A stretch of 64,000 bases of DNA, taken from positions 124,001 through 188,000 of the forward strand of contig DASXVU010000048.1 of the NCBI GenBank assembly GCA_036504055.1, given 5' to 3'. This DNA is from Methanomassiliicoccales archaeon. Its GTDB lineage: Archaea > Thermoplasmatota > Thermoplasmata > Methanomassiliicoccales > UBA472. The translations under genes and the position numbers were made by a program. Shown one piece after another: positions 30,367 through 49,668 of this stretch; positions within the stretch are counted from its first letter, which is position 1; every line of letters begins with the position of its first letter. The notes under the pieces were generated by a model, which was not told the origin of the DNA, made no database searches, and was given only the letters and a program-made list of their open reading frames with translations.

Positions 30367-33294
30367 TCACGCATTGGCGCCATAGGTGTTCCCATAGATG
30401 CTCAGATGCGACCCATCGTTCTGCTGCCATACGGCCAAGGCATTGCCCGAACCATCCATGGCGACCTGGGGGACGAATGCATCCTTGGCGCCGGTCTCGA
30501 TTAGCTTTGCCGTTCCCCATGCTCCCGCCGAATACCGGTTGGCATAGATGCTGCCGCCCTGTGCCCATATGGCCACCGCGTTGCCATTGTTGTCCATGGC
30601 CACCTGGGGGGTCATGGCCCAGCCTGCGGACGTGTTCAGTAGCTTTGCCGTTCCCCACGCTCCCGCCGAATACCGGTTGGCATAGATGCTGCCGCCCTGT
30701 GCCCATATGGCCACCGCGTTGCCATTGTTGTCCATGGCCACCTGGGGGCTCGATCCCCAGACAGTGGAGGTCTTGATTGGCTGTGCCGTTCCCCACGCTC
30801 CCGCCGAATACCGGTCGGCATAGATCATACCGGCCTGTACCCATACCACGATCGCGTTGCCATTGTTGTCCATGGCCACCTGGGGGCTGCCAGCATCCAC
30901 ATTGGAGGTCTCCAGCAGTTGCGTCGTTCCCCAGCCGATGGCATTGGTATACTTGGAGGCATAGATGCTAAGGCGCCAGACGTTGTCCAGCTGTACCCAT
31001 ACCACGATCGCGTTGCCATTGTTGTCCATGGCTACCTGCGGTATCTGGGCATCGCCCTTGGCCGTCTCTATCAGCTTGGCGGCTCCCCAGGCACCAGCAG
31101 TGTATCTGTTGGCATACGTGCTGTAATAGGCACCGTCATACTGCCCCCATACCGCCACGGCGTTGCCATTGTTGTCCATGGCGACCTGCGGTGTCTTAGC
31201 GTCTCCCGTGGCTGTCTCCAGTAGCTGGGCGGTTCCCCAGGCCCCCGCGGCATACGTGTTGGCGTATATGCTGTAATAGGCACCGTCATACTGCCGCCAT
31301 ACCGCCACCGCATTGCCGTTGTTATCCATGGCGATCTGCGGTGAGTCAGCTGAACCGCTAATGGTTTCGATCAGGGTGACCGTTCCCCAGGCTCCAGACG
31401 AATAGCTACTGGCGTAGATGTTGTAATAGGTGCCGTCATACTGCTGCCAGACGACCATGGCATTGCCGTCGGTGCCCACAGCCACCTGGGGGGTCGAGGC
31501 ATCTCCAGAACCTGTCTCCAGTAGCTTGGCGGTCCCCCAACCCAATGTGATGCTCGGGACGTTCACCGGCGTCGAACTTACGGTCGATGTCTGAGCTCCG
31601 GTCCCGGCAGCGTTGTGCGCCGTGACCTTGAATGAATAGGACTGCCCGCCTGTGAGGCCAGCCACCGTGTATGACGTACTCGAGGCATGCTTAACATCGG
31701 CGCCGTCCTGATAGATCACGTAATAGTCGATCGCTGTCCCGCCGTTGGAGGAGGGGGCGGTCCAGTTCAATGACACCCGACCAGTTCCCGCAATGGCCTT
31801 GAGACCGGTCGGGACACCAGGCACCGTAAACGGTATTGAAACGACCGGTGATGACTGAGTACCGATACCTGCGGAACCATGTGCAGAGACGGCGAACGAG
31901 TAGCTCTGACCGTTCACAAGACCGGTGATCGTGGTCGATGTGGAAGCGACATGGGCGACATCGATCCCGCCCTGGTACACGATGTAATGGTCGATCGCTG
32001 TTCCACCATTGAAGGAAGGAGCCGTCCAGTTCAATGCCACCTGCCCGTTTCCTGCGATGGCGGTCAGACCGGTGGGAACATTGGGCACGCTTATCGGTGT
32101 TGAACTGACAGACGATGTCTGGGCCCCGGTCCCAGCGGGGTTGTGGGCCGCGACCGTGAACGAATAGCTATGGCCGTTCGCAAGACCGGCCACAGTGTAG
32201 GTCGTACCCGAGATGTGCTTTACATCAGCGCCTCCCTGGTAGACGATGTAGTAGTCGATCGCCGCCCCACCGTTGCTGCTCGGCGCGCTCCATACAAGAC
32301 CTACCTGTCCATTGCCGGCGGTGGCGATCAGACCGGTCGGGACGCCTGGAATGGTCGGACCGGGGACATTTATGCTTGCCAGGGGGTAGTAGTCCTTGCT
32401 GCTGCCCTCTCCGATCGGATAGGGTCTATCGATTATCCCATCTGCGTTGGCATCCGGCGTCGTCCAGTCGCTCCAGTAATTGCCGTATGAACCGGTGTTC
32501 CAATGGTTACCCACTCCGGTATCGGCGCATTGCTGGTGCAACGCATTATAGACGGACGTCGACTTGTTGTTCACGATCAATACGTTGCCGTATAGGTTGT
32601 TGAAGTCGGAGTCTGCAAGATGGATGCCGTGCCCCTTGTTGTTCTTCAAGGTGTTGTTCGATATGGTATTGCGGTCAGAATGCAGCACATAGATGCCATT
32701 GTCACCGCTTGAGTAGCAGGTGTTGTTGGAAATAACGTTCCTGTTGGAGTCTTTGTCCAGCATTACTGCGCATGCCCTGGTCGCCCGGCAGGTGTTATTG
32801 TTTATGATGTTGTCATACGCGGCAGACGTGTAGATGCCGTGAGCGGCGTCTATGCAGACATTGTTTGTTACGGTGTCGTTTCCCGTGCTGCGCAGCCAGA
32901 TGCCATATGGATCATTTCCGCTGCAGTTGTTGTTGGTCACGGTGACATAGTTGGATCTTATCACTTCGATGCCATAATTGTTACCATGCAGGTAGCTGTT
33001 GCTGATGACCAGCCGGACAGTTATATTCGCAACATAAATGCATGCGCCGCCCGTGCCAGATATATCGTACCCGTTGATGACATAAGGGTCGTTCGCGGTC
33101 CCCGATCCGGTGCAACCGCCTGCTGCTCTCAGGCTCAGCAGATCATTGTTATTGTCAATGTGGATGGTCGAATGTGGAATATAAGTCGGCCCGCTCGCCT
33201 GTACGACACCGATCGTTCCCACCGAAGAGAAGATCGACACGACCAACGAGAATGTTACTAGAATCAGAAGTCCCTTGCTGCCTGCTATCTTCAT
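30367..33294 (-). CDS. Secreted beta-helix / triple Fn3 / repeat protein
   Basis: A 975-residue exported protein in three parts. After the signal (about 8-34), a NosD/PbH1 beta-helix runs from about 50 to 300 and ends in the YWSDWTTPDANADGIID motif, also found in the giant protein. Three near-identical fibronectin III domains follow (about 316, 405 and 492 to 577), each with VPTGL at the start and GQSYSF in the middle. The last 400 residues are eight 'NGNA-VVW' repeats of the same kind as the protein at 16753-19359. No C-terminal anchor. ATG 33294 follows GGGGG. Likely a surface adhesin or carbohydrate-binding protein. Confidence 0.87.
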   Translation of the reverse strand: MKIAGSKGLLILVTFSLVVSIFSSVGTIGVVQASGPTYIPHSTIHIDNNNDLLSLRAAGGCTGSGTANDPYVINGYDISGTGGACIYVANITVRLVISNSYLHGNNYGIEVIRSNYVTVTNNNCSGNDPYGIWLRSTGNDTVTNNVCIDAAHGIYTSAAYDNIINNNTCRATRACAVMLDKDSNRNVISNNTCYSSGDNGIYVLHSDRNTISNNTLKNNKGHGIHLADSDFNNLYGNVLIVNNKSTSVYNALHQQCADTGVGNHWNTGSYGNYWSDWTTPDANADGIIDRPYPIGEGSSKDYYPLASINVPGPTIPGVPTGLIATAGNGQVGLVWSAPSSNGGAAIDYYIVYQGGADVKHISGTTYTVAGLANGHSYSFTVAAHNPAGTGAQTSSVSSTPISVPNVPTGLTAIAGNGQVALNWTAPSFNGGTAIDHYIVYQGGIDVAHVASTSTTITGLVNGQSYSFAVSAHGSAGIGTQSSPVVSIPFTVPGVPTGLKAIAGTGRVSLNWTAPSSNGGTAIDYYVIYQDGADVKHASSTSYTVAGLTGGQSYSFKVTAHNAAGTGAQTSTVSSTPVNVPSITLGWGTAKLLETGSGDASTPQVAVGTDGNAMVVWQQYDGTYYNIYASSYSSGAWGTVTLIETISGSADSPQIAMDNNGNAVAVWRQYDGAYYSIYANTYAAGAWGTAQLLETATGDAKTPQVAMDNNGNAVAVWGQYDGAYYSTYANRYTAGAWGAAKLIETAKGDAQIPQVAMDNNGNAIVVWVQLDNVWRLSIYASKYTNAIGWGTTQLLETSNVDAGSPQVAMDNNGNAIVVWVQAGMIYADRYSAGAWGTAQPIKTSTVWGSSPQVAMDNNGNAVAIWAQGGSIYANRYSAGAWGTAKLLNTSAGWAMTPQVAMDNNGNAVAIWAQGGSIYANRYSAGAWGTAKLIETGAKDAFVPQVAMDGSGNALAVWQQNDGSHLSIYGNTYGANA
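30503..30747. repeat. 138-bp tandem duplication inside the repeat protein
   Basis: Bases 30503-30609 and 30641-30747 are almost identical (one difference seen by eye), with a period of 138 bp or 46 codons. It is a recent in-frame duplication of one repeat unit. Confidence 0.8.
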
Positions 33295-34134: not shown

Positions 34135-34449
34135 TTCCAGAAGCCATTTAATCGATCTGGCTAACTTGGGTTCATTCACTTCAGTAACTGTCCCTTTTCA
34201 GGACCTTCATGAAAGACCCAATAAGTTATTCGAACGATCCATCTTCCTTTGCTATCTATTGCTTACTCGTGAAAAATGTCCTGGAACATGTCGATCTCGG
34301 CTTGGCAATCTCCCGGTTTTCCTGATCCTGGACATTCACGATCGGCTTCCCAAGTTCATTATCAAATATCACATTCTGATGCTAATTTTCTTTATTAGGA
34401 ATCACGTGTGAGCTTACCTGGGGCATCCTCTAGGGAAGATTGGGATATC
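34135..34449. other. 315-bp gap
   Basis: No convincing gene. An overlapping frame (34118-34411) has no support. The right end carries GGGATATC directly before the next start. Confidence 0.5.
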
Positions 34450-36117
34450 ATGAATCATAAGAAGCTCACCGCCTTGCTGGCAACGCTCATGCTCTTATCA
34501 CCGATTGTCACGTTGACAGTTGGATCGATGGTCGGCACGGTGTCCGCTGAGGTAAGCGGCAGTTTCGAATATTCACTCAACAGCGATGGAACGGCGGTTG
34601 AGATCACTAGATATAACGGCACAGGTACAAGCGCGGTCATTCCCAGCGTGATCGCCGGCAAGCCAGTCACCTCCATCGGGGAGCGGGCTTTTAGCAATTG
34701 TACTGCCTTGACGGCCGTGACCATCCCCAACAGCGTCCTGACCATCGGAGCGGGCGCTTTCCAGAACTGCTATTCCTTGACAGCCCTGACAATACCGAAC
34801 AGCGTCTCAAGCATCGGGGAGGGGGCGTTCTACGATGTCGGCCTTCGTTCGGTCGTCATCCCGAACAGCATGAAGGTCATCGAGGACAACCTGTTCTTCG
34901 ACTGCTATTCCCTGACCTCGGTGACGATTCCAGTCAGCATAACCAGCATCGGGGACTATTCGTTCGGCAACTGCTACCAGCTGAGCAGCATCATTATTCC
35001 CAAGAGCGTCACCAACATAGGCGCCGGTGCATTCTCTAACTGCGGCCTGAAGACGGCGGTCATACCGGAGAGCGTCAGCGCGATCAAGGATCGCTGCTTT
35101 CAGGGCTGTTATGCCCTGACCTCGGTGACCATACCCGTCAGCGTCACAAGCCTTGGCAATTATTCTTTCAACAATTGCTATGCACTGTCTTCCATCACGA
35201 TCCCCAGCAACGTAACGAGCCTGGGGGATTACCTTTTCAGTAACTGTTACAAACTGAAATCGGCGGCCATTATGGGAAGTGTCTCGAACATAGGGGCTGG
35301 CGCTTTCTCAAACTGTTACGAGCTGGCCGCGATCACCTTCTATGACAACGCACCCTCCATGGGGGTTGGCTGGAAGACCGGATGCGGGGGAAATTTGACG
35401 GTCTCTTACTACCAAGGAGCGACCGGATTCACCGACCTGTCATGGAGCGGAGTGATACTCCATCAAATGACGTCGCCCAACGCCCCCCGGAACCTTACCG
35501 CAGTGACTGGAGACAGCAGAGTGACCTTATCATGGAAGGTCCCGAGCGGCCCCCTTGGCATTTCCACCGCGAGCTATCTTGTCTATCAGAACGATATCTG
35601 TGTCGAGCGGGTGGTCGGTACCTCGGAGAAGATCAGCGGCCTGACGAATGGATTGTCCTACAACTTCACCGTCGTCCTCACCAACACAAAGGGAAATCTG
35701 CTTAATTCCACCTCCATCGTGGTCAGGGTGCCCATCATAGGGGTCGCGGTCGATGGGACGGCCAACGATATCGACGGAAACCCGATTGCGAACGCCACCG
35801 TTACTCTAAGCAACGGCACGGTCGTGATGACGAACGAATACGGGCAATTCATGATCCTTGGGGTCAAGGCAGGCAATTATAGTCTCACCATTGCCAAGGA
35901 CGGTTACTCGACCATCACGCAGAACGTGACGGTCACATCCGAAAAGAATGCCGATCTCGATTCCGTCGTCCTTCAGGCTATCGATCCTCCCGCCAGCAAT
36001 GGGTCGGGTTCAGGTGACCTGACCCTGATCATCGCCGCCGTGGCCATAGCGGCCGTCATCGCCGTATACTTCCTTTTCTTCCGTAAGCCAAAGGCTAGCG
36101 GCCGGCGCAAGAAGTAG
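34450..36117 (+). CDS. BspA-type LRR surface protein with Fn3 and CarboxypepD_reg domain
   Basis: A 555-residue exported protein: signal (about 5-35), about nine BspA-like leucine-rich repeats (about 60-340; consensus LTSVTIPxSVTSIGxxAFxNC), a fibronectin III domain (about 355-440), a carboxypeptidase-regulatory-like beta-sandwich (about 443-520, TANDIDGNPIANATVTLSNG), and a C-terminal membrane helix (about 527-546) with basic tail. ATG 34450 follows GGGATATC and is preferred over 34408, which would add 14 polar residues ahead of the signal. Probably an adhesin or receptor displayed on the cell surface. Confidence 0.87.
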   Translation: MNHKKLTALLATLMLLSPIVTLTVGSMVGTVSAEVSGSFEYSLNSDGTAVEITRYNGTGTSAVIPSVIAGKPVTSIGERAFSNCTALTAVTIPNSVLTIGAGAFQNCYSLTALTIPNSVSSIGEGAFYDVGLRSVVIPNSMKVIEDNLFFDCYSLTSVTIPVSITSIGDYSFGNCYQLSSIIIPKSVTNIGAGAFSNCGLKTAVIPESVSAIKDRCFQGCYALTSVTIPVSVTSLGNYSFNNCYALSSITIPSNVTSLGDYLFSNCYKLKSAAIMGSVSNIGAGAFSNCYELAAITFYDNAPSMGVGWKTGCGGNLTVSYYQGATGFTDLSWSGVILHQMTSPNAPRNLTAVTGDSRVTLSWKVPSGPLGISTASYLVYQNDICVERVVGTSEKISGLTNGLSYNFTVVLTNTKGNLLNSTSIVVRVPIIGVAVDGTANDIDGNPIANATVTLSNGTVVMTNEYGQFMILGVKAGNYSLTIAKDGYSTITQNVTVTSEKNADLDSVVLQAIDPPASNGSGSGDLTLIIAAVAIAAVIAVYFLFFRKPKASGRRKK

Positions 36118-36271
36118 GTCTGCAGTCTTTCATGTTGGATAGATATGTCAAATTATCTTGACGCTATTGTCTCTCGATCCAGATCATGCCCCGGCCAATG
36201 TCATTTCGACGTTCAACGATCTGGAACAGCAGTTTCCCTTCTCTAAAGTCGTCGATCGTTCGAGCGGGAGG

Positions 36272-36673
36272 CATATTATAAGAAAATGGCGATTTCATAT
36301 GTTAAATTATTATCAATATTATGCATATTTTCAGGAACAAAACGCTATTCAGCGATTATTATCATGATTATTTTGTATATAATTTTGTTTATATCGTATT
36401 ACCCAATTCCCTTCCTTAAGAGTAGTTCAAAACGGAAGAGCCCTCACCGAGGGAATGAACTCTCTGCTGCCAGAAAAGTGACTCTGACGGATCAGTTGCA
36501 ATCAACATCTCGGGATCGATTTTTTTGATCCAGATGTTCAGGCTGCATGCCCATTGAGCGATTCCTTCCGATCGCGTTTAAACACGAGCCAGCCCCGATG
36601 CGGATAAACGTATCGTCCGGGTAACTGGCTCCGTTCAGTCTGCCCAGTGAAACCTAACAAGGAGCTGATAAGC
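36272..36673 (+). promoter_or_regulatory. Structured leader A (promoter plus conserved hairpins)
   Basis: About 400 bp, aligned with leader B at roughly 90% identity over the first 130 bp. TATATAA at 36376-36382 predicts transcription from about 36403 and a 5' UTR of about 270 nt. Hairpins: CCCTC/GAGGG (36441-36453); AACATCT-cg-GGATC/GATCC-AGATGTT (36504-36538); GCGAT/ATCGC near 36558-36575; and GAGCCAG/CTGGCTC (36586-36592, 36625-36631) enclosing CGATGCG/CGTATCG (36596-36615). All recur in leader B, the last with a compensatory base-pair change. It ends in GGAGCTGAT before the small gene. A short hydrophobic frame (36286-36528) also lies in it. Confidence 0.7.
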
Positions 36674-36886
36674 ATGAGAATGGGATCTTCATCGAAGAAG
36701 GACATTCGCGGGACGGGCATCATGATGGCCGTCCTTGTTGCGGCTGGACGTGCTGCGACCGTCGATCTGTCCGTTTTGAACAGCGTATCGAACAAATCGA
36801 AGGACCGGTCCTGGAAGATCGGCGATCAGGCGATGAAAAAGACCGGAAATACCCCTGCCATGACCAGAGGCTGTTTGCATGAGTAA
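36674..36886 (+). CDS. Small conserved protein A, coupled to beta-helix gene
   Basis: A 70-residue protein starting at ATG 36674 behind GGAGCTGAT. It aligns along its whole length with small protein B at 38654 (core AATVDLSVLNSV, KDR-WK-GDQAM). Most base differences between the two are at third codon positions, so it is truly coding. The protein is basic, with a mildly hydrophobic stretch (about 14-30) but no clear membrane helix or signal. Its stop overlaps the beta-helix start by 8 nt, implying translational coupling. I know no family for it. It may be a regulator, chaperone or partner of the exported protein. Confidence 0.75.
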   Translation: MRMGSSSKKDIRGTGIMMAVLVAAGRAATVDLSVLNSVSNKSKDRSWKIGDQAMKKTGNTPAMTRGCLHE

Positions 36887-38036
36887 ATTCCAGTTCAAAA
36901 GTAGGTCCTTGACGTTCCTATCCTTCTTGTTTGTGGGAGCGTTGATCGGTATGTCTTTCATGGGTGCTGTGCCCGTCCAAGCGCTTTCGGCTCCGGTGGG
37001 CGATGGAACGTCGGTCTCCGTGGCCTACACCATCTACAAGGATGGCAGCGGTTACACCTGCGCAAAGAACAGCGCGACCGGGGCCATCGATTATAGGAAC
37101 ACCAACTCGAAATGGGTGATCCAGAAGGCCATCGACAAGCTTTCGGGCGGTTATATCCTGATCAAAGCCGGAAAATATGACATAACCCAGACCATCTACA
37201 CCAACAAGGTGTCGATCATCGGCGAGGGGAACGCGACGGTGTTGGACGCCACCACCGCCTGCACTGGTGCGGTCATTAGGGTGTGCAATAACTACTGGAC
37301 ACTAGATTACAGATACATGTCCGCACGCCCCAACGGGATAACCATCGGCAACATGCAGATCGACGGCAACCGTGCGGTCCGGACCAATGGATTGCTGGAA
37401 GGGGTCGGCTTCATAAACTGCCTCAATAGCCACATGGTCAGGATCTATGCGCATGACATCATCGGCGGGCAGGGACTGTACATGTCCAACTCTCAGTACT
37501 GTACCATCGTCGATTGTCAGATCTACAACGTCGGAGACAACACCGCGGCCCATTACGGATCGGGCATAGCGTTCGGCGAGGCATCTGAGATCAAGGTCCC
37601 GTGCTCGTACATCACGATCGACAACTGTCTGATATCCAGGGCCTCGATGTCATCGATCGACCTGGAGCCGGCCAACAACGTGGTCATAAAGAACTGCGTT
37701 TTCCGTGAGGCTACCACCTGGAAGGGATATCCCACCCCGGTGATCACGGAATACGCGGTATATGGATACGCTCCAGCGAACGACTACATCACCGTGACCG
37801 GATGCAACGTCAACGGTGCGTTCAGTGAGTTCGTCGTTCTGACCCCGAGCAGCCACTCGGTGATCAAGAACAACGTCGTCACTCAGACCGCGGGCACGAC
37901 CACGGCGATATACTCGACCAACTCGCACTCGAACACGATCACCGGTAACGTGATCAAGACCGCCTCGCCCAGGCCGATCCAACTCGTGGGCTGCACTTCG
38001 TGCACGGTCTCGGGCAACACGATCCTGGCCAGATGA
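36879..38036 (+). CDS. Secreted right-handed beta-helix protein (copy A)
   Basis: A 385-residue exported protein: signal (about 10-33, ending near VQALS), then a pectate-lyase-like parallel beta-helix to the C-terminus. Key segments are GGYILIKAGKYDITQ, IIGEGNATVL, NGITIGNMQIDGN, GQGLYMSNSQYC, YGSGIAFGE and SMSSIDLEPANNV. It has many Cys (CAKN, TACTGA, VCNNY, GCTSCTVSG), so disulphides are likely. No membrane anchor, unlike the relative at 21059. It is a tandem paralogue of copy B. Overlap with the small gene upstream and a terminator downstream define a two-gene unit. Catalytic residues are not evident. Confidence 0.87.
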   Translation: MSKFQFKSRSLTFLSFLFVGALIGMSFMGAVPVQALSAPVGDGTSVSVAYTIYKDGSGYTCAKNSATGAIDYRNTNSKWVIQKAIDKLSGGYILIKAGKYDITQTIYTNKVSIIGEGNATVLDATTACTGAVIRVCNNYWTLDYRYMSARPNGITIGNMQIDGNRAVRTNGLLEGVGFINCLNSHMVRIYAHDIIGGQGLYMSNSQYCTIVDCQIYNVGDNTAAHYGSGIAFGEASEIKVPCSYITIDNCLISRASMSSIDLEPANNVVIKNCVFREATTWKGYPTPVITEYAVYGYAPANDYITVTGCNVNGAFSEFVVLTPSSHSVIKNNVVTQTAGTTTAIYSTNSHSNTITGNVIKTASPRPIQLVGCTSCTVSGNTILAR

Positions 38037-38052
38037 GCGTCGTTGTGCCGTT

Positions 38053-38103
38053 GGACAGGACCTCGCGGGTCGCAGGAGGTCCGCCCGTCCTAAAACCATT
38101 TTT
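38053..38103 (+). terminator. Terminator after beta-helix copy A
   Basis: GGACCT (38058-38063) pairs with AGGTCC (38077-38082), flanked by an outer GGAC/GTCC (38053-38056, 38087-38090), followed by TTTTT at 38099-38103. It starts 16 bp after the stop. Confidence 0.55.
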
Positions 38104-38129
38104 CCCTCTCTCTTGATCCAGCTCTTTTT

Positions 38130-38244
38130 TCAAGACCTCGTCCTCATTCCATAGCTCATTCATCGGATCAAGGCAACGGCCGCCGGGATCACGAAGAAGG
38201 TCAAAACCCGGATCAGTGCCGAGACCATCGAGTAGGCGAAATAG
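38130..38244 (-). pseudogene. Broken 3' end of the downstream membrane-protein gene
   Basis: About 38 codons that align with the C-terminus of the membrane protein at 40138-40707 (DYFAYSM-SALI-VL--F-IPAA-AL), including the position of the natural stop (38130-38132). A premature TGA stands at 38160-38162 where the intact gene has TGG. The rest of the gene is missing, and sequence switches at about 38245 to leader B. It is the scar of the tandem duplication. Confidence 0.85.
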
Positions 38245-38250
38245 TCGGAG

Positions 38251-38653
38251 CATACTATAAGAAATTGGCGATTTCATATGTTAAATTATTATCAATATTA
38301 TGGATATTTTCAGGAACAAAACGCCACTCAGTGATTATTATGATGATATTTTTCTATATAATTTTGTTTATATCGCATAACTCCAATTCCCTTATTCACG
38401 AGAGTTCAAAACGGAAGAGCCCTCATCGAGGGCAACGGACTCTCGGCCGTTAGAGCAGAACTCTCACGGATCAATTGCAATCAACATCTCGGGATCCATT
38501 TTTGATCCAGATGTTCAGGCTGTATGCCCCATTGAGCGATTTCTTCCGATCGCGTGTAAATACGAGGCAGGCCCCGGGACGATCACTGAATCGTCCGGGT
38601 ACCTGCCTCCGTTCAGTCTGTCCAGTGCAACGTAATGAAAGGAGCTGATAAGC
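38251..38653 (+). promoter_or_regulatory. Structured leader B (promoter plus conserved hairpins)
   Basis: Second copy of the leader, 403 bp. TATATAA at 38355-38361. Hairpins match leader A: CCCTC/GAGGG; AACATCT-cg-GGATC/GATCC-AGATGTT (38483-38515); GCGAT/ATCGC; and GAGGCAGG/CCTGCCTC (38564-38571, 38602-38609) enclosing GGACGAT/ATCGTCC (38577-38596) with a 6-nt loop. In the outer stem the fourth pair is G-C here and C-G in leader A, so both sides changed together. It runs to GGAGCTGAT before small gene B. Confidence 0.7.
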
Positions 38654-38863
38654 ATGAGAATGGTATCTTCATCGAAGGACATGCGCGGGATGGGCGTCAC
38701 GACGGCCATCCTGGTCGCGGCAGGACGTGCTGCGACGGTCGACCTGTCCGTTTTGAACAGTGTTGCGAACAAAGCAAAGGACCGCGCCTGGAAGCTCGGC
38801 GATCAGGCGATGAGAAAGTGCATCGGCGGAGATGCCTCCGCCATCAACAGAGGCTGTATCTAA
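38654..38863 (+). CDS. Small conserved protein B, coupled to beta-helix gene
   Basis: A 69-residue paralogue of small protein A, with the same ribosome site (GGAGCTGAT, 4 nt before ATG). The N-terminal (SSSKDMRGMG) and core (AATVDLSVLNSVANKAKDRAWKLG split here only for reading) regions are conserved; the C-terminus varies but both end in RGC plus two to four residues. The stop TAA shares its last A with the ATG of the beta-helix gene (TAATG), an overlap different from copy A yet again coupling translation. No known family. Confidence 0.75.
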   Translation: MRMVSSSKDMRGMGVTTAILVAAGRAATVDLSVLNSVANKAKDRAWKLGDQAMRKCIGGDASAINRGCI

Positions 38864-40008
38864 TGACATTTTTCAGGTTCAAGGGCAGGTCCCTGACGTT
38901 CCTGACCATCATGTTCGTGGGAGTTTTGATCGGAACATCGGTCTTGGGTGCGATGCCGGCCCAAGCGGCGACGATCGCCCCGGTGGGGAATGGAACATCG
39001 GTCTCAGTGGCGTACACTATCTACAAGGACAGCAGCGGTTACACCTGTGCGAAGAACTGCGCCAACGGTGCCATCGATTTCCGTAACACGAACTCGAGAT
39101 GGGTAATTCAAAAGACCATCGACAAGCTGTCGGGCGGTTACATATTGATCAAGGCCGGAACCTATGCGATTACCCAGACGATCTACACCAACAAGGTGTC
39201 GATCATCGGTGAGGGTAACGCAACCATCCTGAAGGCCAGCGGCAATGTGGGAGGCGGTATGATCAAGGTGACCGATGGCTACTGGACACTGGACTACAGG
39301 TTGATGTCGAGTCGCCCGAATGGAATAACCATCGGCAATCTGCAGATCAATGGCCTGGGCGGTGGATCGATGAAAGGGGTCGCCTTCATTGATTGCCTCA
39401 ACAGCAAGATGGTCCGCATCTATGTCCATGACATATTGGCCTGTCAGGGGCTCTACATGTCCAACTCGCAATATTGTAGCATCTCCCGTTGCCAGATCTA
39501 CAACGTCGGGGACAACACAGCAGCCCATTACGGATCGGGAATAGCTTTCGGTGAGGCGTCATCGACGAAGGTCGCTTCCTCCTATATCACCATCGATAAC
39601 TGCCTGATAAGCAAGACATCGATGTCCTCGATAGACCTGGAGCCGGCCAACCACGTGACCATCACCAACTGCGTGTTCCGCGAGGCCGCCATGTGGAAGA
39701 ACTACTACAACCCGGTGATAACGGAGTATCGGGTGTCAGGGTATGCAGCAAATGACTACATCACAGTGAGCGGATGCAACGCCAACGGCGGATTCAATGA
39801 ATTCATCGTTCTGACGCCAAGCAGCCATTCCGTGGTCAAGAACAACGTCATTACGCAAACCCGCGGTTCGTGCACCCCTATCTACGTGACCTACTCGCAA
39901 TACGACACGATCACCGGAAACAAGATCACGACCGCTTCGAGCCAGCCGATCCACCTTGTGGGTTGCAGTTCATGCACTGTCTCGGGCAACACGATCATCA
40001 AGCGGTGA
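38863..40008 (+). CDS. Secreted right-handed beta-helix protein (copy B)
   Basis: A 381-residue exported protein, homologous end to end with copy A: signal (about 10-33, ending near AQAAT), TIYKDSSGYTCAKN, GGYILIKAGTYAITQ, GQGLYMSNSQYC, YGSGIAFGE, SMSSIDLEPANHV, final SCTVSGNTI. The frame is open to 38635, but ATG 38863 is set by homology to copy A and by the TAATG overlap. Differences cluster in turns (for example LGGGSMKG against AVRTNGLLEG), as expected for surface loops under diversifying use. It is followed by a strong terminator. Confidence 0.87.
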   Translation: MTFFRFKGRSLTFLTIMFVGVLIGTSVLGAMPAQAATIAPVGNGTSVSVAYTIYKDSSGYTCAKNCANGAIDFRNTNSRWVIQKTIDKLSGGYILIKAGTYAITQTIYTNKVSIIGEGNATILKASGNVGGGMIKVTDGYWTLDYRLMSSRPNGITIGNLQINGLGGGSMKGVAFIDCLNSKMVRIYVHDILACQGLYMSNSQYCSISRCQIYNVGDNTAAHYGSGIAFGEASSTKVASSYITIDNCLISKTSMSSIDLEPANHVTITNCVFREAAMWKNYYNPVITEYRVSGYAANDYITVSGCNANGGFNEFIVLTPSSHSVVKNNVITQTRGSCTPIYVTYSQYDTITGNKITTASSQPIHLVGCSSCTVSGNTIIKR

Positions 40009-42281: not shown

Positions 42282-43424
42282 TCAGGCGCTTTCCTTCCTC
42301 CTTCCCACGAAGCACATTACCGCGCCCATGGCCGTCAAGGCAGCCACAAGGGAGGTCGCCACAATGATGCTCTCCGAACTGCCGACGGCGCCAGGCGTTT
42401 CATTGATCGGTGAGGTCTTCTCCACCATCAACTGTTTTCCAGGAGTGACAAAAACTTCTGTGGAATTGGGTCCATCACCAAGCGAATTGTGCGCCGATAC
42501 CGTGAACATGTAGGTCTGGTTGTTCCCCAGGCCGGTGATATTGGCTGCATTGGCGATCGTCGTGGCGACAGCGATTCCGTTCTGGTATGCTGTGTATCGG
42601 TCGATCGGAGAACCGCCATCGTCGGGCACGTTCCATGTGAGCACCGCATACTGGTCCCTGTGGCTTGATATCATCAGGTCGGGGGCGGCCGGCGCTCTCA
42701 ACAGACAAACGGTGGCCGCGCCGTTCCAGCTGGGAGCGAACCCGGTCGCTCCGTGATAGTAGTTGACGATGAGCCCAGGTGTTCCCGGGATCACGTTGCG
42801 TTGATAGGTCCAATCGGCGCCGACCGACGGCGCGTTGCCATTGAACGTTACCGTGTTCAGGCCGAAACAGTAGGCGAACGCCATCTCTCCGATGCTGGTG
42901 ACGTTCTGCGGTACGGTCAACGATGACAGAACGTAGCAATACCCGAATGCCCTCATTCCGATGGTGTCCGTCGCATCTCCCAACCTGACGGTGGAAAGGG
43001 AGAAGCAACCTTCGAAGGCCTCATCCTGAATGGCGGCGACACCGTTGCCGATCGTGACGGATGTTAGAGAGCCGCAGAACCCGAACGCCCTGATGCCAAT
43101 GGCGGTCACGCTATCTGGAATGGTGACCGAGGTCAGAGTGCCGCAGAAATAGAACGCGTCCTGACCAATGCTGGTAACGGGAACGCCGTCGATTGAGTCT
43201 GGAATGACGACATCGCCGCCCGGTCCATGGTATTCGGTTATCTCTACCCCTGTCTCCGCTTCGACAGGCTCCCAATCCAGGTATCCGATTATCTCGGATC
43301 TCGTCTCATAGCTGAAATCGCCGCTGGTCTGGGCGGACGCTGTGCTGGAGGAGATGATCAAGACGGTGGAAGAGAATGAAAACAGCATCAAAACGGCCAA
43401 TAGTATGGAAGTTGACTTGTGCAC
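42282..43424 (-). CDS. BspA-type LRR surface protein with Fn3
   Basis: A 380-residue exported protein, a shorter relative of the one at 34450: signal (about 6-32), about six BspA-like leucine-rich repeats (about 70-215; SVTIPDSVTAIGIRAFGFC type), a fibronectin III domain (about 243-330) and a C-terminal membrane helix (about 353-373) with GRRKESA tail. The start is GTG 43424 behind GGGACGATC, a spacing like that of other genes here. Convergent with the response regulator. Surface adhesion is the likely role. Confidence 0.86.
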   Translation of the reverse strand: MHKSTSILLAVLMLFSFSSTVLIISSSTASAQTSGDFSYETRSEIIGYLDWEPVEAETGVEITEYHGPGGDVVIPDSIDGVPVTSIGQDAFYFCGTLTSVTIPDSVTAIGIRAFGFCGSLTSVTIGNGVAAIQDEAFEGCFSLSTVRLGDATDTIGMRAFGYCYVLSSLTVPQNVTSIGEMAFAYCFGLNTVTFNGNAPSVGADWTYQRNVIPGTPGLIVNYYHGATGFAPSWNGAATVCLLRAPAAPDLMISSHRDQYAVLTWNVPDDGGSPIDRYTAYQNGIAVATTIANAANITGLGNNQTYMFTVSAHNSLGDGPNSTEVFVTPGKQLMVEKTSPINETPGAVGSSESIIVATSLVAALTAMGAVMCFVGRRKESA

Positions 43425-43571: not shown

Positions 43572-44855
43572 TCACATCGGTATCCGATGGGATACCCTCA
43601 TGGCCAACGCCGCCGTGGTCAGCATGGTGGGCAGACCTTGGGATCGGGGAAGCAGGGAGAGGTCAGCCACCCAAAGCCCCTCCGGCAGGATGGAGGGGTG
43701 CATGCTGTCGACATCTCCCCTATGCAGCGGCACGGTGCCACCAAGGTGTCCTCCGTGCAGTAAACCATTCACATAGGGAGCCTGGACATCTGCCATCTCC
43801 ATCATCTCCCGGACCTCCTGGCAGGCCTTCTCCAGCCTCACACTATCCCACTCTGTCAAGGGCTTTTCCACCGTTCCGTCGGCCAGGACCTTTCCGTTGG
43901 CCGACTCGGCCATCTTCACCATGACCCCTACCCGGTCCTTGAGCCCCACCTTTCTCCAGGGGCGATGGAACCAATGGGAGAGCACATCGAAATAGGGCGA
44001 GATGATGTATCCGTCCCTTTGGCAATACCAGGCCATGGGCGGTTCCTCCAGCTGCCGGGCGCCCTTGAATTTGCCGCCGACCGTGAGGACCAGATCGGCC
44101 CAGAGCGTATCACTGGGGTCGATGCCCGATGCCCTTAGTATCTGGGCTGTGCCGATGCCGCCAGCGGCCAGCACGACCACGTCCGCTTTGATAGCCTCCG
44201 AACGTCCTTCCCTCTCCGCCAGCACTCCGACGGCCTTGCCCGCTTCGAGGACGACCCTTTTCACGGCCGTCCCTTGGCTCGTCGTGCAGCCCATCTTCAC
44301 CGCCTCTGCCAGGAACAGCCGCGAGTCCCATCTGGCACCGGTGGAGCATCCGACCTCGCACAACCCGCAGGAGATGCACCGTTCCATGTTCACCGCCTTC
44401 GGCGTGGGCCGGGGGTCAAGCCCCATTTCCTTGGCCGATTCGAACATCCCTGCGGTGATCGGACGCCATCTCTCCCTCGGGACCGTGCTCACCCTTATCT
44501 GCCCCTCGAGCTCCTCGTACTCGGCGGTCAGGTCGAGCCCGATCTCACGGAGACCGGCGCCTGCCCTTACCAGGTTCCCGCAGGAGACCACGGTGCAGCC
44601 TCCCGCGGCCACGGAACGGACCAGAGCAAGCTCTTCGCCGGAGCGGGTGGTGCGATAGGCCTTGATGAATCGGGAAACGTTCCGTTCGCTTCCGAGCAAC
44701 CCGGCCCGGCGGATCGGTTCCGTCCATCCCACCCTACGGGTGAACGGTTTGAACCTGGTTCCCGCCTCCAGGACAACGACCTCCATCCCCCTCTTGACCA
44801 GCTCCCGGGCGGCGGTCGCTCCGCCCGCTCCCGACCCCACCACTATCGCTCTCAT
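43572..44855 (-). CDS. GMC-type FAD oxidoreductase
   Basis: A 427-residue flavoprotein of the glucose-methanol-choline family, which oxidises alcohols. FAD-binding GSGAGGATAARE (7-18) with VVVLEAG, a SVAAGGCTVVSCGNL motif at the flavin, and the C-terminal GLWVADLSLLPRSQGLPTM with His in HGGHLGGTVP fit. A CxxCxxCxxxC cluster (CISCGLCEVGC, about 160-170) may bind an Fe-S cluster or zinc. Last gene of a four-gene operon; its ATG overlaps the preceding stop by 4 bp. Given the acyl reductase upstream, long-chain alcohol could be the substrate, which is inference. Confidence 0.87.
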   Translation of the reverse strand: MRAIVVGSGAGGATAARELVKRGMEVVVLEAGTRFKPFTRRVGWTEPIRRAGLLGSERNVSRFIKAYRTTRSGEELALVRSVAAGGCTVVSCGNLVRAGAGLREIGLDLTAEYEELEGQIRVSTVPRERWRPITAGMFESAKEMGLDPRPTPKAVNMERCISCGLCEVGCSTGARWDSRLFLAEAVKMGCTTSQGTAVKRVVLEAGKAVGVLAEREGRSEAIKADVVVLAAGGIGTAQILRASGIDPSDTLWADLVLTVGGKFKGARQLEEPPMAWYCQRDGYIISPYFDVLSHWFHRPWRKVGLKDRVGVMVKMAESANGKVLADGTVEKPLTEWDSVRLEKACQEVREMMEMADVQAPYVNGLLHGGHLGGTVPLHRGDVDSMHPSILPEGLWVADLSLLPRSQGLPTMLTTAALAMRVSHRIPM

Positions 44856-45451
44856 AGCCCCTCACCGATCTCGATCATTGCCAAGCACCTCGGTGACCCA
44901 TCAGTGATACGTTCACGGAATCGCATGCGTACGCCCGGGTTGAGGCCGCTGACCGCCCCTTCGTCGACGGCGCTCAGTATGATACACGCCTCCGGTGAAT
45001 AGTGCCGGGACAGAACGCATCGGGTCACTTCCATCATTTCCCCGGCAGGTCCTCCCATCACCGTGAACTCGATGCCCAGTATCCGGTACAGGACCCCTGC
45101 CGCCCGGTACAGGTCCTCCCTGGAGTCATTGACCCCCAGCCGCCGCTTGGCATCCCTACCCAGGTCCAGGCCGGTCCGGAACAGCGTCTCCCTCCCCGAT
45201 CTGACCGCCTCGTCCCGGCCCACGGCCTCGATCAGCGCCCTGACCCTTCTGTTATGGCCCAGGGCCATGGCCTCCCTCTGCTCCTCCAGCCGACCACTCG
45301 GTCGGACCTTCTCTTCCTTGCGGAACGTCGGGGCATGCTCGGATATAAGCGAATCGAGCGCGTCGTCCGTGACCGACCGGATCCTCTCGATCTCCTTGGC
45401 CATCATGAACCCGGGCATCCACAGGGAGGCCACCCGCAGCCGGGCGCTCAT
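44852..45451 (-). CDS. ATC-hydrolase-like protein
   Basis: A 199-residue protein, mostly helical in its first half, then a domain with VMGGPAGEMMEVTRCVLSRHYSPEA and a C-terminal DGSPRCLAMIEI. Two Cys in such positions, with a late SPRC strand, recall the L-2-amino-thiazoline-4-carboxylate hydrolase-like family, whose members often accompany other enzymes as cofactor or thiol-binding partners. Similarity is by pattern only. It overlaps both neighbours by ATGA junctions (45448-45451 and 44852-44855), so the three are translated together. Confidence 0.65.
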   Translation of the reverse strand: MSARLRVASLWMPGFMMAKEIERIRSVTDDALDSLISEHAPTFRKEEKVRPSGRLEEQREAMALGHNRRVRALIEAVGRDEAVRSGRETLFRTGLDLGRDAKRRLGVNDSREDLYRAAGVLYRILGIEFTVMGGPAGEMMEVTRCVLSRHYSPEACIILSAVDEGAVSGLNPGVRMRFRERITDGSPRCLAMIEIGEGL

Positions 45452-48177
45452 GGTCCCCTCTCCGCCCTGCCGATGTGGATCGCCTCACCGGGGACCGTTG
45501 ATCCAGAGTAAATGGCCTCGATGACCGGGGCAAAGCGCTCCATGACCCGTGACCTTCTGAGTTTCATGTTGGCCGTCAGCTCGCCCCCTTCGACGGAAAG
45601 GTCGTTCGAGAGCACCGCCCAGGCCTTCACCTGCTCCGGATGTGACAGGTCCGTGTTCATGCCCCCGACCAGGGCGTCTATTTCAAGGGTCACACCTTTC
45701 TCAGGCCAGACCAGTGCGGAACAGTACGGCCGTCCTTCCCCCACTATCATGGCCTCGAACACCCCGGGAAGGTCTCGCAACCTTGTCTCCGCGTTCAGCG
45801 GGTTCACGAACTTGCCGTACGAGGTCTTGATGAGCTCCTTCTTGCGGCCTTCGAGGACCAGGCCGCCTTCGGGTGTAAGGTGGCCGATATCCCCGGTCAG
45901 CAGGTGACCGTCCCGGAACGGTTGTTCGACATCTCCCAGATAGCCGCAGGTCACCTGCGGTCCCTTGACCAGGACCTCGCCGTCGGCGGCTATTTTCACT
46001 TCGGTCGACGGAAGCGGCTCGCCCACCGTGCCGAACCGGTTGCGGCCCGGGTAGTTGATGGTGACCAGGGGCGCTTCGGTCAGCCCGTAGGCGTTGTGCA
46101 CCTCGATGTCCAGCTTGTGAAGGCCGGTCAGGATGTCCGTGCTCATGCGGCCGGAACCGGAGATGAGGTAGGCGCACCGGTCCAGACCCGCGGAGCGCAA
46201 CGCCCTGCGCCTGATTATGGGTGCCATTATCAGCCCGCTGATTCCGCCCGCACCCTCCAGGTACCTCTTGGCCCGGGGGTTGGCGAGCAGGGTGTCCCAC
46301 ATCTTCTCATAGAAACGGGGGACCGAGAAGAACACGGTGGGCCTCACCTTCAGCAATGCCGCCTTAAGTCCGCCGAAGTCCTTCAGGAAATAGAGGTTGA
46401 TAGGGGCGGGCGCGTAGAAGGGGGAATAGGTGGCCAATATCCCTTCGACCACGTGGTTCATGGGCAGGAAGGAAAGGTAGAACACCTCTGAGTTGCGGGC
46501 CTCCCAGGGAGGCAGCGACGCGGTGGACTCGGCCATATATCGCAGGTGCTCGTGCTTGAACAGAACCCCTTTGGCCTTCCCGGTGGTGCTGGACGTGTAC
46601 CGTAACGTGGCCAGGTCACCGAACCCCGCTGGCGACCGATCGGCCGCCTCTCCGCCCAGTTCCAGGAAGTCCTCCCATTTCATCACCCTGTCCGCCAGTT
46701 CCTCGGGCACGGAGCCGCAGAACGAGACCGCTGGCACGGCGACGCTCATCTCTCCGAACCTCTTCAGGACCGCCTCCGAGCCGATCAGCACGATCTTCGC
46801 CCGGCTGGACCCGACGAGCTCGCTCAGCTCCTTGGGCGGGCTGGTATAGTACAGCGGCACGCTCACTCCTCCGACCAGACCGATGGCCACGTCCAGGACC
46901 AGGTACCGGATGCTGTTCGAGCCGACGATCGCCACTCGGTCTCCCGGGACGATCCCCAATGACCGGAGCGCTGCGCTCGCCATGAGCATCTCCCCCCTTA
47001 CTTCCTCGGCCGGTCTGGACACAACCGAACCGTCCACGATATCGAACAGCCGGACCGGCCTCCTCTTGCTCTTGAGACGGAACAGGACCTGTTCATGCAC
47101 TGTTCGTTCCGACCTGTGCAGGAAACCGTTGTAGGTCCCGAACTCCAGCAGCCGGGGAAGGAGATGGTGCCAGTCTATACTGTAGACACCCATCAGTTCG
47201 TCGACGTTGTCCCGCCGGAACGCCCGGCGCTCCTGCAGGTAGGGAGCGATGACCTTGAGGTCTTCCGACGCACGGCCCATCAGGCCAGCCATGGGAACGA
47301 ACACCGGCCTGGGAAGCTCGACGCCCAATCTCTCCTTGGCCCAGGTCCTTGTGAAAATGATCGCCTCCTTCACCGTCGGTAGCGCATCCAAAACACCCAC
47401 CAGATGGAACGTTCGGCCTTCCGCCCGACGGTCCAGGGTAAGGCGTCCGATCGCCTCTGCTATATAGTCGACCGGAACCAGGTTGACCTTCTGCGATGCG
47501 GAGAGGGGAACGACCTTCAGTTTGCCGGTGAGGTACAGGCGGAGAGGATAGTACAAGGTGTTGAAGGTGCGGACATGACCATCCTCGGAGCTGCCGACCA
47601 CCATGCCAGGACGGAAGATCGAGACCGGCAGATGCTTGGCCGCTCTCACCAGCCTCTCGCCTTCGAACTTGCTGATCTCATAGTTGCTGAGGAAGCCGTA
47701 GCGGTCGGTCAGGTCCTCCTCCGGGATGACACCTTTACGCGCTCCGGCCACGTATGCTGTGGAGATGTGTGAGAAACGCTCCAGCCCGTGGTGTCCCTGA
47801 ACATCGTCCGCTAGCCTGAGGACGTTCCTCACCCCTTCCACATTGGTCCTTCTCAGATCCTCCAAGGGTGCATTGAGCCTGATGTCGGCTGCGGCATGGA
47901 TGATCGTGCCGACCTCGGCGATCACACGCTCATAACTGTCAGCGGCCAGGCCCAGGCCTTCGACGGTCACGTCACCGGCAATGACCCGGACCCTGTCGTC
48001 CAATGCCTGGATCAGTTCCTGGCGGTCCCACCACGCCCTCGACAGACGGTTCTTTGCCTCCTCATCGTTCTCCGCCCTCACCAGGACGATGATGGGACGT
48101 TCGGTGTTCATGATCAGCCAGCGCGCCACATAGGTGCCGATGAACCCGGTCCCTCCGGTGAGCAGGACGGCGTTCAT
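45448..48177 (-). CDS. Fused acyl reductase (N) and acyl-AMP ligase (C)
   Basis: A 909-residue two-domain enzyme. N-terminal extended SDR/thioester-reductase domain (1 to about 360): TGGTGFIG at 7-14 for NAD(P), catalytic Y166 and K170 (YEISK). C-terminal ANL adenylation domain (about 390-900): TSSTTGKAKG near 525, NAYGLTE near 696, LLTGD, and catalytic Lys in NMKLRR near 871. Order is reductase-ligase and no carrier-protein domain lies between, the reverse of carboxylic acid reductases. It could activate a fatty or other acid and reduce it to aldehyde or alcohol. ATG 48177 gives an ATGA overlap with the gene upstream. Confidence 0.9.
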   Translation of the reverse strand: MNAVLLTGGTGFIGTYVARWLIMNTERPIIVLVRAENDEEAKNRLSRAWWDRQELIQALDDRVRVIAGDVTVEGLGLAADSYERVIAEVGTIIHAAADIRLNAPLEDLRRTNVEGVRNVLRLADDVQGHHGLERFSHISTAYVAGARKGVIPEEDLTDRYGFLSNYEISKFEGERLVRAAKHLPVSIFRPGMVVGSSEDGHVRTFNTLYYPLRLYLTGKLKVVPLSASQKVNLVPVDYIAEAIGRLTLDRRAEGRTFHLVGVLDALPTVKEAIIFTRTWAKERLGVELPRPVFVPMAGLMGRASEDLKVIAPYLQERRAFRRDNVDELMGVYSIDWHHLLPRLLEFGTYNGFLHRSERTVHEQVLFRLKSKRRPVRLFDIVDGSVVSRPAEEVRGEMLMASAALRSLGIVPGDRVAIVGSNSIRYLVLDVAIGLVGGVSVPLYYTSPPKELSELVGSSRAKIVLIGSEAVLKRFGEMSVAVPAVSFCGSVPEELADRVMKWEDFLELGGEAADRSPAGFGDLATLRYTSSTTGKAKGVLFKHEHLRYMAESTASLPPWEARNSEVFYLSFLPMNHVVEGILATYSPFYAPAPINLYFLKDFGGLKAALLKVRPTVFFSVPRFYEKMWDTLLANPRAKRYLEGAGGISGLIMAPIIRRRALRSAGLDRCAYLISGSGRMSTDILTGLHKLDIEVHNAYGLTEAPLVTINYPGRNRFGTVGEPLPSTEVKIAADGEVLVKGPQVTCGYLGDVEQPFRDGHLLTGDIGHLTPEGGLVLEGRKKELIKTSYGKFVNPLNAETRLRDLPGVFEAMIVGEGRPYCSALVWPEKGVTLEIDALVGGMNTDLSHPEQVKAWAVLSNDLSVEGGELTANMKLRRSRVMERFAPVIEAIYSGSTVPGEAIHIGRAERGP

Positions 48178-49400
48178 GTCCGCACATCCCATCCTCGGGC
48201 TCTTAGGAACCCGCCCACCAGCAGGCGTGCGCGCAAGGCCCGGTCCTTCTGCTCGCGATGAGCTGCCGCCAGCTTTTCCCTGACCTCAACCGGATCGTCG
48301 AGGAGCCTTCCGGCACGATCCCTTACCGATGGGAAAAGGTTCGGCGCGTCTCGTGGGAAGAAGTAATCCTGTTTCATCCCGATCTCGTCGTAGAGGTCTT
48401 CCAGTCGTACATCGTGGGCGATCGCCACCTGCGGAATGTGGCCTTCCAGGGACAACGCTCCCGCATGATATCGGGAGGTTATGAGCAGGTCCAATCCCCT
48501 CAGCACCGTGGTCATCTGGGAGGCGTTGTATCGACTGGACGAGAAGATGCGAGCGCGGTCCTTGTGCCTCATCCGGCTGCGGATGTCTGCGGCGATGGCA
48601 TCGTCCAAAGATTCCATGCATAGGAGTGCGACGCTCCTGCCATGTTCTTCGACCATCCAGTCCGCCAGTTCCGCAAAGTCCTGGGCCAGCCGGGCCGCTG
48701 CCGCCCTCCTTTCCTTCGTCCAGGAGAAATAGAACGGCCATTTGTAGCATCGTGCCCGGCGACCCCACAGGCGGGGAACGACCGGAAAGAGGTTGAAATC
48801 CACGGCGGCAATGCCCACCACCCCTGATGAGGGGAACTCCTGAACTAGGACGTCCCTGTCGGAAGGATCGGGCTTGAACAGGAAGGCCGTGTCGGCGGCC
48901 ACCTCAATGGGCGCGGTCACCTCCCAATTCCTCAGCCGCTCGGCACTGGCATATGTGCGGGTGATGATCAGATCGGTCTTGCTCGCCTCAACCCTGATCT
49001 TTTCCTGGCTGGCCGGCGAGACCTGTCCCGAGTCGACGGCATACGAGATGCACGGTTTGCCAAACTCGGCCGCGCAATGGGTGGCCCAAAGGTAGGCGTC
49101 CAGCAGGGCCTTGGTGAAGGTCTCGATGTAGCAGCTGCCTTCCACCAGAATGACCAGATCGTGCTCACGCACCAACCGGCGGACGGTCCGTTTGTAGGTG
49201 GTCGGTACCCTGACTATCCTGAGGTTCTCCTCTTCCTTGAGGTAGCGGCGGAGCTTCTTCACGTCGAGGCTGGGAACAGTGAGAATTGCCTTTGGCCCCA
49301 ATAGCGATCTCATGTCCTCTATCGTTGCCAGGAGCTTTGCCTCCGCTCCGGTGTTGTTCGCTCCGTTGTACCCGAACAATAGGACCTTGAGTACGCTCAT
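48174..49400 (-). CDS. Polysaccharide pyruvyl transferase family protein
   Basis: A 408-residue CsaB/WcaK-type enzyme, which adds pyruvate ketals from phosphoenolpyruvate to sugars of polysaccharides or glycolipids. N-terminal LLFGYNGANNTGAEAKL is the usual start motif; later come LVEGSCYI, ITRTYASAERL, and the C-terminal ITSRYHAGALSLEGHIP with the family's RYHAG. ATG 49400 is preferred over 49451, with AGGGCGAG upstream. First gene of the operon, overlapping the fusion enzyme by 4 bp. Together they may build a modified glycolipid or surface polymer, which is inference. Confidence 0.88.
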   Translation of the reverse strand: MSVLKVLLFGYNGANNTGAEAKLLATIEDMRSLLGPKAILTVPSLDVKKLRRYLKEEENLRIVRVPTTYKRTVRRLVREHDLVILVEGSCYIETFTKALLDAYLWATHCAAEFGKPCISYAVDSGQVSPASQEKIRVEASKTDLIITRTYASAERLRNWEVTAPIEVAADTAFLFKPDPSDRDVLVQEFPSSGVVGIAAVDFNLFPVVPRLWGRRARCYKWPFYFSWTKERRAAAARLAQDFAELADWMVEEHGRSVALLCMESLDDAIAADIRSRMRHKDRARIFSSSRYNASQMTTVLRGLDLLITSRYHAGALSLEGHIPQVAIAHDVRLEDLYDEIGMKQDYFFPRDAPNLFPSVRDRAGRLLDDPVEVREKLAAAHREQKDRALRARLLVGGFLRARGWDVRT

Positions 49401-49668
49401 GATGCTCGCCCTTTCTCCCTTCCTATTGAACATATGAAGCGAATTCCGCACTTAAATCTAACCTAGAAGAAACAAGTCGGATTCCGATAAATCAGTCATG
49501 ATGAATGATCGTTCAAACCGCTGCCAGAAAGGTTAGGGACGTGTAACAAAGAACATCTCCATCGGCGTTGTGCTCACGAGCATGCAGCCAGAAGCCGAAA
49601 GCGTATAAGCTCGCCAGGAAACGTCGGTCGCATCAATGGATCCCAACACTTCAAGGATAACGAGATGC

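Follow-up and report, generated by a model that had tools for sequence, protein, structure and literature searches.

A conserved four-gene cassette around a putative carrier-free reductase-ligase fusion in archaea and bacteria

What might be made by a group of tightly coupled genes in a Methanomassiliicoccales archaeon, in which an acid-activating and an acyl-reducing domain are fused in an unusual order? A sequence-only reading of the window (i.e., the whole analysed stretch of 64,000 nucleotides) had assigned these genes to one operon of an undescribed lipid, wax or surface-glycolipid pathway and had linked them to the peculiarities of archaeal membranes.

Four genes are situated on the minus strand within positions 43572-49451, in the order PPT (pyruvyl transferase family), FARL (reductase-ligase fusion), ATCH (PF14196 family), and GMC (flavoprotein). 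Open reading frames and overlaps, read directly from the sequence, confirm that all four are tied by 4-bp overlaps, each of the three junctions consisting of the bases ATGA (Table 1). The span given earlier (45448-49400) includes PPT and FARL, whereas ATCH and GMC lie outside it, at 43572-45451. FARL comprises 909 aa from the overlapping ATG and 914 aa from an in-frame ATG further upstream. Elsewhere, the window encodes many surface-type proteins, which contain BspA-type leucine-rich repeats and domains of the NosD/beta-helix and fibronectin III types (34408-40008 on the plus strand; 8703-14237, 21059-22495, 30367-33294, and 42282-43424 on the minus strand); two of them, at 36879 and at 38635, are beta-helix proteins that resemble each other and are encoded side by side.

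Table 1. Positions of the cassette genes, their domains, motifs and overlaps within the window.
Feature	Position	Strand	Characteristics
PPT, gene 1	48174..49400	-	start ATG 49400; frame open to GTG 49451; PF04230
FARL, gene 2, 909-aa reductase-ligase fusion	45448..48177	-	ORF, Pfam, NCBIfam, alignment, structure model
FARL residues 1-265, NADPH thioester-reductase domain	47383..48177	-	TGxxGFxG; Y166-x3-K170 invariant
FARL residues 266-372, reductase C-terminal part	47062..47382	-	neither 4'-PP motif nor invariant Ser; model positions 4-370 covered by stand-alone reductases
FARL residues 374-909, AMP-forming ligase domain	45451..47058	-	RYTSSTTG, YGLTEA, TGD, K872
ATCH, PF14196 protein, predicted TRAPP/V4R fold	44852..45451	-	invariant C145, C156, C189
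GMC flavoprotein	43572..44855	-	FAD GxGxxG; H370 invariant
CISCGLCEVGC in GMC, [4Fe-4S]-type invariant Cys motif	44346..44378	-	Fer4 match; alignment
ATGA overlap PPT/FARL	48174..48177	-	PPT ends 48174, FARL starts 48177; NTGA end in 17/22 other loci
ATGA overlap FARL/ATCH	45448..45451	-	FARL ends 45448, ATCH starts 45451; NTGA end in 17/22 other loci
ATGA overlap ATCH/GMC	44852..44855	-	ATCH ends 44852, GMC starts 44855; NTGA end in 12/22 other loci

In FARL, Pfam assigns residues 11-248 to NAD_binding_4 (E 3e-57) and residues 403-752 to AMP-binding (E 4e-48), the latter followed by AMP-binding_C_3 (914-aa numbering), and this domain order bears out the description of a 909-residue fusion with an N-terminal reductase and a C-terminal ligase. 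The NCBIfam thioester reductase model TIGR01746 matches below its cutoff. Among 29 FARL homologues, little or no variation is seen in the reductase motifs TGxxG and YxxxK and in the ligase motifs A3, A5, A7, A8, and A10, K872 included. By profile comparison, the nearest solved structures are for the reductase the MxaA R domain, followed by PKS and CAR reductase domains, and for the ligase the A domains of CAR, nearly tied with feruloyl-CoA, fatty-acyl and succinylbenzoate ligase structures; the structure model of FARL reaches a pLDDT of 88 and a pTM of 0.87. The R domains nearest to the reductase serve in the release of acyl thioesters. As the top-ranked NCBIfam models for the ligase are FadD11 and a long-chain-fatty-acid ligase (PRK06187), and as CAR and fatty-acyl ligases are among its structure matches, a long-chain acid would be the favoured substrate.

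Between the two domains, FARL possesses a stretch of about 106-130 aa that might be suspected to hold a carrier. Pfam, however, finds no PP-binding domain in FARL, and neither this stretch nor the C-terminal tail contains a 4'-phosphopantetheine motif or an invariant Ser in the 29 homologues, such that the reported lack of a carrier domain stands. Since stand-alone reductases of Chloroflexota (about 420-445 aa) match model positions 4-370, the linker can be regarded as the C-terminal part of the reductase, and a hidden carrier domain was rejected on these grounds. A carrier protein acting in trans was rejected as well: a whole-genome search detected no PF00550 protein, whereas 11 of 14 control genomes were positive. 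Nor does the genome contain a convincing ketosynthase, the only match being fragmentary (21.7 bits). With no carrier detected in FARL or the genome, the acyl group is most likely handed on via CoA. That FARL by itself is a carrier-free acid reductase we consider probable, and better supported than the lipid reading of the whole cassette discussed below.

The first gene, PPT, matches the pyruvyl transferase family PF04230 (E 1e-16; 61.8 bits vs a cutoff of 25.3). Its residues R165, R327-x-H329, and R349 (numbering of the 425-aa form) are invariant in the homologue alignment and correspond, by motif and spacing rather than by structure, to R148, R306-x-H308, and K328 of CsaB, where R148, R306, H308, and K328 bind PEP (PMC10435577). 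The last gene, GMC, encodes a FAD GxGxxG motif, a GMC_oxred_N domain, and an invariant H370, and scores only 61 bits against the MftG model (cutoff 387). The four cysteines C160-x2-C163-x2-C166-x3-C170 are invariant in 17/17 aligned rows, including a divergent form from Chloroflexi; this CxxCxxCxxxC motif points to a [4Fe-4S] cluster and to electron transfer without oxygen. On the Photobacterium plasmid pDA100 (L112, 7806-9122), a DUF3047 gene adjoins that of a distantly related GMC whose Cys-rich motif is similar, such that this GMC subfamily is present in Vibrionaceae, too. Known plasmid-borne relatives amounted to CARs and distant GMCs only, and no related partners are encoded around the GMC of Photobacterium.

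ATCH had been described as an ATC-hydrolase-like protein, PF14196 being the family named after L-2-amino-thiazoline-4-carboxylate hydrolase. Its membership in PF14196 holds by way of its homologues, 17 of 22 of which match that model (best E 1e-11), the copy of the window itself remaining below the threshold (E 0.008); the name, however, is a family label only, and the predicted fold is of another kind. Structures similar to the model (pLDDT 94) are those of TRAPPC3/Bet3, with a palmitoylated entry among them, and of the V4R domains of PoxR and MopR, with Z scores of 9-11.5 over 140-160 residues (11.5 to Bet3-type chains) at an identity under 18%. These proteins are known to bind hydrophobic ligands, the V4R domains of PoxR and MopR being sensors of phenol. 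ATCH is thus predicted to have a TRAPP/V4R ligand-binding fold, a likeness that is no proof of a ligand-holding role.

Of 150 relatives, about 15, belonging to four families, have FARL in full-length or fragmented form, and its partners are always the same as far as the contigs reach. When 84,980 species genomes were scanned, 44 loci were obtained, 43 with FARL and one with the ligase only. The complete order PPT-FARL-ATCH-GMC occurs in about 22 of the 43, about 13 are consistent but limited by their contigs, two are rearranged (L063, L074), five contain FARL alone, and one (L058) is too short to judge. Recurring in dozens of loci, the arrangement is not due to chance; the same domain order and four-gene synteny were encountered in distant archaea and bacteria, in line with the view of one operon acting as a unit. 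By record, the hosts are Methanomassiliicoccales, Methanobacteriaceae, Thermoplasmata, MCG-6, Chloroflexi, Spirochaetes, KSB1, Bipolaricaulota, Firmicutes, and more, nearly all being metagenome bins of which some taxon labels may be wrong; bacterial hosts are nevertheless supported by a LuxR/MalT-type regulator beside one FARL (L049) and an NTE-type patatin beside another (L056). A tie specific to archaeal membranes is not supported, the cassette being found equally in Chloroflexi, Spirochaetes, KSB1, Bipolaricaulota, and others. In the FARL tree, the sequence of the window groups with Methanomassiliicoccales. This group falls within a starred set to which Bipolaricaulota/Thermotoga bins belong as well, and most Chloroflexi sequences are placed elsewhere.

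Several bins carry FARL split into two frames (L036/L073, L044/L082, L089), and on the chromosome of Methanomassiliicoccales bin396 it is shortened to a 751-aa frame (L076), owing to sequencing errors or decay. Among the matches listed from 331 Chloroflexota genomes, two are full-length FARL, the others being mostly stand-alone ligases, along with two stand-alone reductases. The stand-alone AMP-ligase subfamily (about 600-700 aa, 290-375 bits to the FARL profile; L097-L101, L135-L162) is frequent in Chloroflexota and also occurs in other Thermoplasmatota; in several of its members, the matching region has an in-frame stop close to one of its ends.

Of the 389 Thermoplasmatota genomes of one sample, 6 possess a full FARL, the same 6 possess PPT, and 5 of these possess GMC, the sixth genome being 72% complete with a contig that ends after ATCH. 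Outside the FARL genomes of this sample, GMC is absent and PPT is represented by a single divergent copy. The hypergeometric probability of such co-occurrence with FARL is 8e-11 for GMC and 1.5e-12 for PPT if genomes are treated as independent and kinship is ignored. Judged from gene content, PPT and GMC depend on FARL, whereas FARL is separable from them, as neither was detected anywhere in the five genomes having FARL alone. One partnerless FARL, in Thermoplasmata bin33 (L083, 3228-9490), is flanked by the gene of an aldehyde ferredoxin oxidoreductase and, on the opposite strand, by one of the pyruvate-ferredoxin-oxidoreductase type, and a divergent PPT without FARL (L130, 5611-6876, in G358) adjoins DUF362, MMPL, and SDR epimerase genes, which give no functional hint.

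These patterns bear on a catabolic or redox-balancing role, in which acid, aldehyde, and alcohol would be interconverted in connection with ferredoxin, e.g., for disposal of reductant or use of scavenged fatty acids, PPT being incidental. The iron-sulfur motif of GMC fits such a module, as do the neighbourhood of the solo FARL in bin33 and a genome without detected ACP or ketosynthase, where acids would be scavenged; the association of PPT with FARL and GMC, however, is no less strict than that between those two, and the patchy distribution better fits specialised biosynthesis, such that we regard this role as very unlikely.

Beside the cassette, no fifth gene recurs, the neighbours being scattered (e.g., an FMN reductase-type gene in 4 loci), and this includes genes for glycosyltransferases, acyltransferases, lipid export, and alkylglycerone-phosphate synthase. 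Such a self-contained cassette, in which PPT comes first and its gene overlaps that of FARL, and a ligase profile that does not single out one substrate class, would agree with FARL reducing the product of PPT itself, i.e., the pyruvate-ketal carboxylate on a small polyol or sugar, to yield a small metabolite, signal or cofactor instead of a lipid. In the five genomes where FARL occurs without detectable PPT, however, the acid need not be derived from PPT, and the best family models are fatty-acid ligases; this explanation appears distinctly unlikely.

The most likely function of the cassette, tentatively held and based on domains, conserved active-site residues, the missing carrier site, linkage, and co-occurrence at the level of sequence, is to make an anionic, pyruvate-capped lipid from a reduced acid. 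The cassette would be a self-contained, horizontally mobile, biosynthetic unit of anaerobes. FARL would adenylate a carboxylic acid, probably a long-chain acyl or isoprenoid one, with ATP and transfer the acyl group to coenzyme A as the presumed acceptor, whereupon its N-terminal domain would reduce the thioester with NADPH to the aldehyde, perhaps to the alcohol. GMC, with its putative iron-sulfur cluster, may perform a further redox step on alcohol or aldehyde, ATCH may serve as its partner or as a lipid-holding subunit, and PPT would place a pyruvate ketal from PEP onto a diol of the headgroup. Both the order of steps and the pyruvate-capped product are what we infer, and a lipid or surface-glycolipid role, as originally suggested, is our best guess.

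Several points count against the lipid reading. As no glycosyltransferase, acyltransferase or lipid-export gene recurs, headgroup and attachment are unaccounted for. GMC enzymes usually form aldehydes, and the direction of flux is ambiguous, given that FARL, too, yields an aldehyde. The near-tie of CAR, feruloyl-CoA and fatty-acyl ligases and the five FARL genomes without detectable PPT or GMC weigh in the same direction. A connection to the butanetriol/pentanetriol tetraethers of Methanomassiliicoccus was dropped, as most genomes of the order have no FARL and bacteria do have it; a near-complete 2.6-Mb genome of the Methanomassiliicoccus family (G043) is also without FARL. A far bolder form of the lipid reading, which we strongly doubt, would be a new lipid class of archaea and bacteria in which PPT closes a reduced diol chain into a pyruvate-ketal carboxylate headgroup, without glycosyltransferase, glycerol phosphate or ACP, a TRAPP/V4R-fold protein holding the intermediate.

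The conserved four-gene cassette is real and apparently undescribed as far as the open-access literature shows, the search of which returned no publication on it, as had been expected. Its presence across anaerobic archaea and bacteria points to a compound made by both domains. FARL is a candidate carrier-free carboxylic acid reductase, and such a biocatalyst would need no phosphopantetheinylation; furthermore, the cassette constitutes a defined set of proteins for studying acid activation in an archaeon without detectable acyl carrier protein, and ATCH offers a test case for the TRAPP/V4R fold in a pathway role.

Compared to known systems, PPT shares with the ketal-pyruvyl transferases CsaB and Pvg1p the family PF04230 and the PEP-binding Arg, RxH, and basic residue at +20, whereas it remains below the cutoff of the CsaB equivalog TIGR03609 (76.4 vs 213.1 bits) and has no S-layer or glycan locus. 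GMC resembles MftG and FAD glucose dehydrogenases in its FAD motif, GMC_oxred_N domain, and conserved His near the C-terminus, but is shorter and carries the CxxCxxCxxxC motif within its chain. ATCH agrees with Bet3/TRAPPC3, PoxR, and MopR in predicted fold, whereas its sequence groups with PF14196.

In CAR (e.g., MmCAR, 5MSO), homologous adenylation and thioester-reductase domains are likewise united in one polypeptide, whereas their order (A-PCP-R) is reversed in FARL, which has no phosphopantetheine carrier domain. The order is thus inverted relative to CAR, but it is not without precedent: the myxobacterial ElbD, which Myxococcus needs for its ether lipids, is described as having a FAR-like domain at its N-terminus, with ACS, ACP, and AGPAT-like acyltransferase domains behind it (PMC9131029). 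According to this published description, ElbD equals FARL in the reductase-like domain preceding ACS and differs in its additional ACP and AGPAT-like domains and in its operon partners ElbA-C and E. The precedent raises the alternative of an ElbD-like pathway in reduced form that leads to ether lipids of the alkyl (or vinyl) type, in which FARL would provide fatty aldehyde or alcohol and the other genes would modify the lipid. Several phyla hosting FARL also overlap those reported with ElbD matches (PMC11868695); nevertheless, the ACP and acyltransferase domains are missing from FARL, neither an acyltransferase nor an alkylglycerone-phosphate synthase is a recurrent neighbour, and ether lipids of archaea are made otherwise, which leaves this route unlikely. 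ElbD-like FAR-ACS-ACP-AT proteins are absent among the matches listed from the 331 Chloroflexota genomes. FcrA of wax-ester haloarchaea, a homologue of HMG-CoA reductase, reduces fatty acyl-CoA (PMC11948995) and thus parallels the putative FARL reaction in an archaeon, whereas the two proteins are unrelated.
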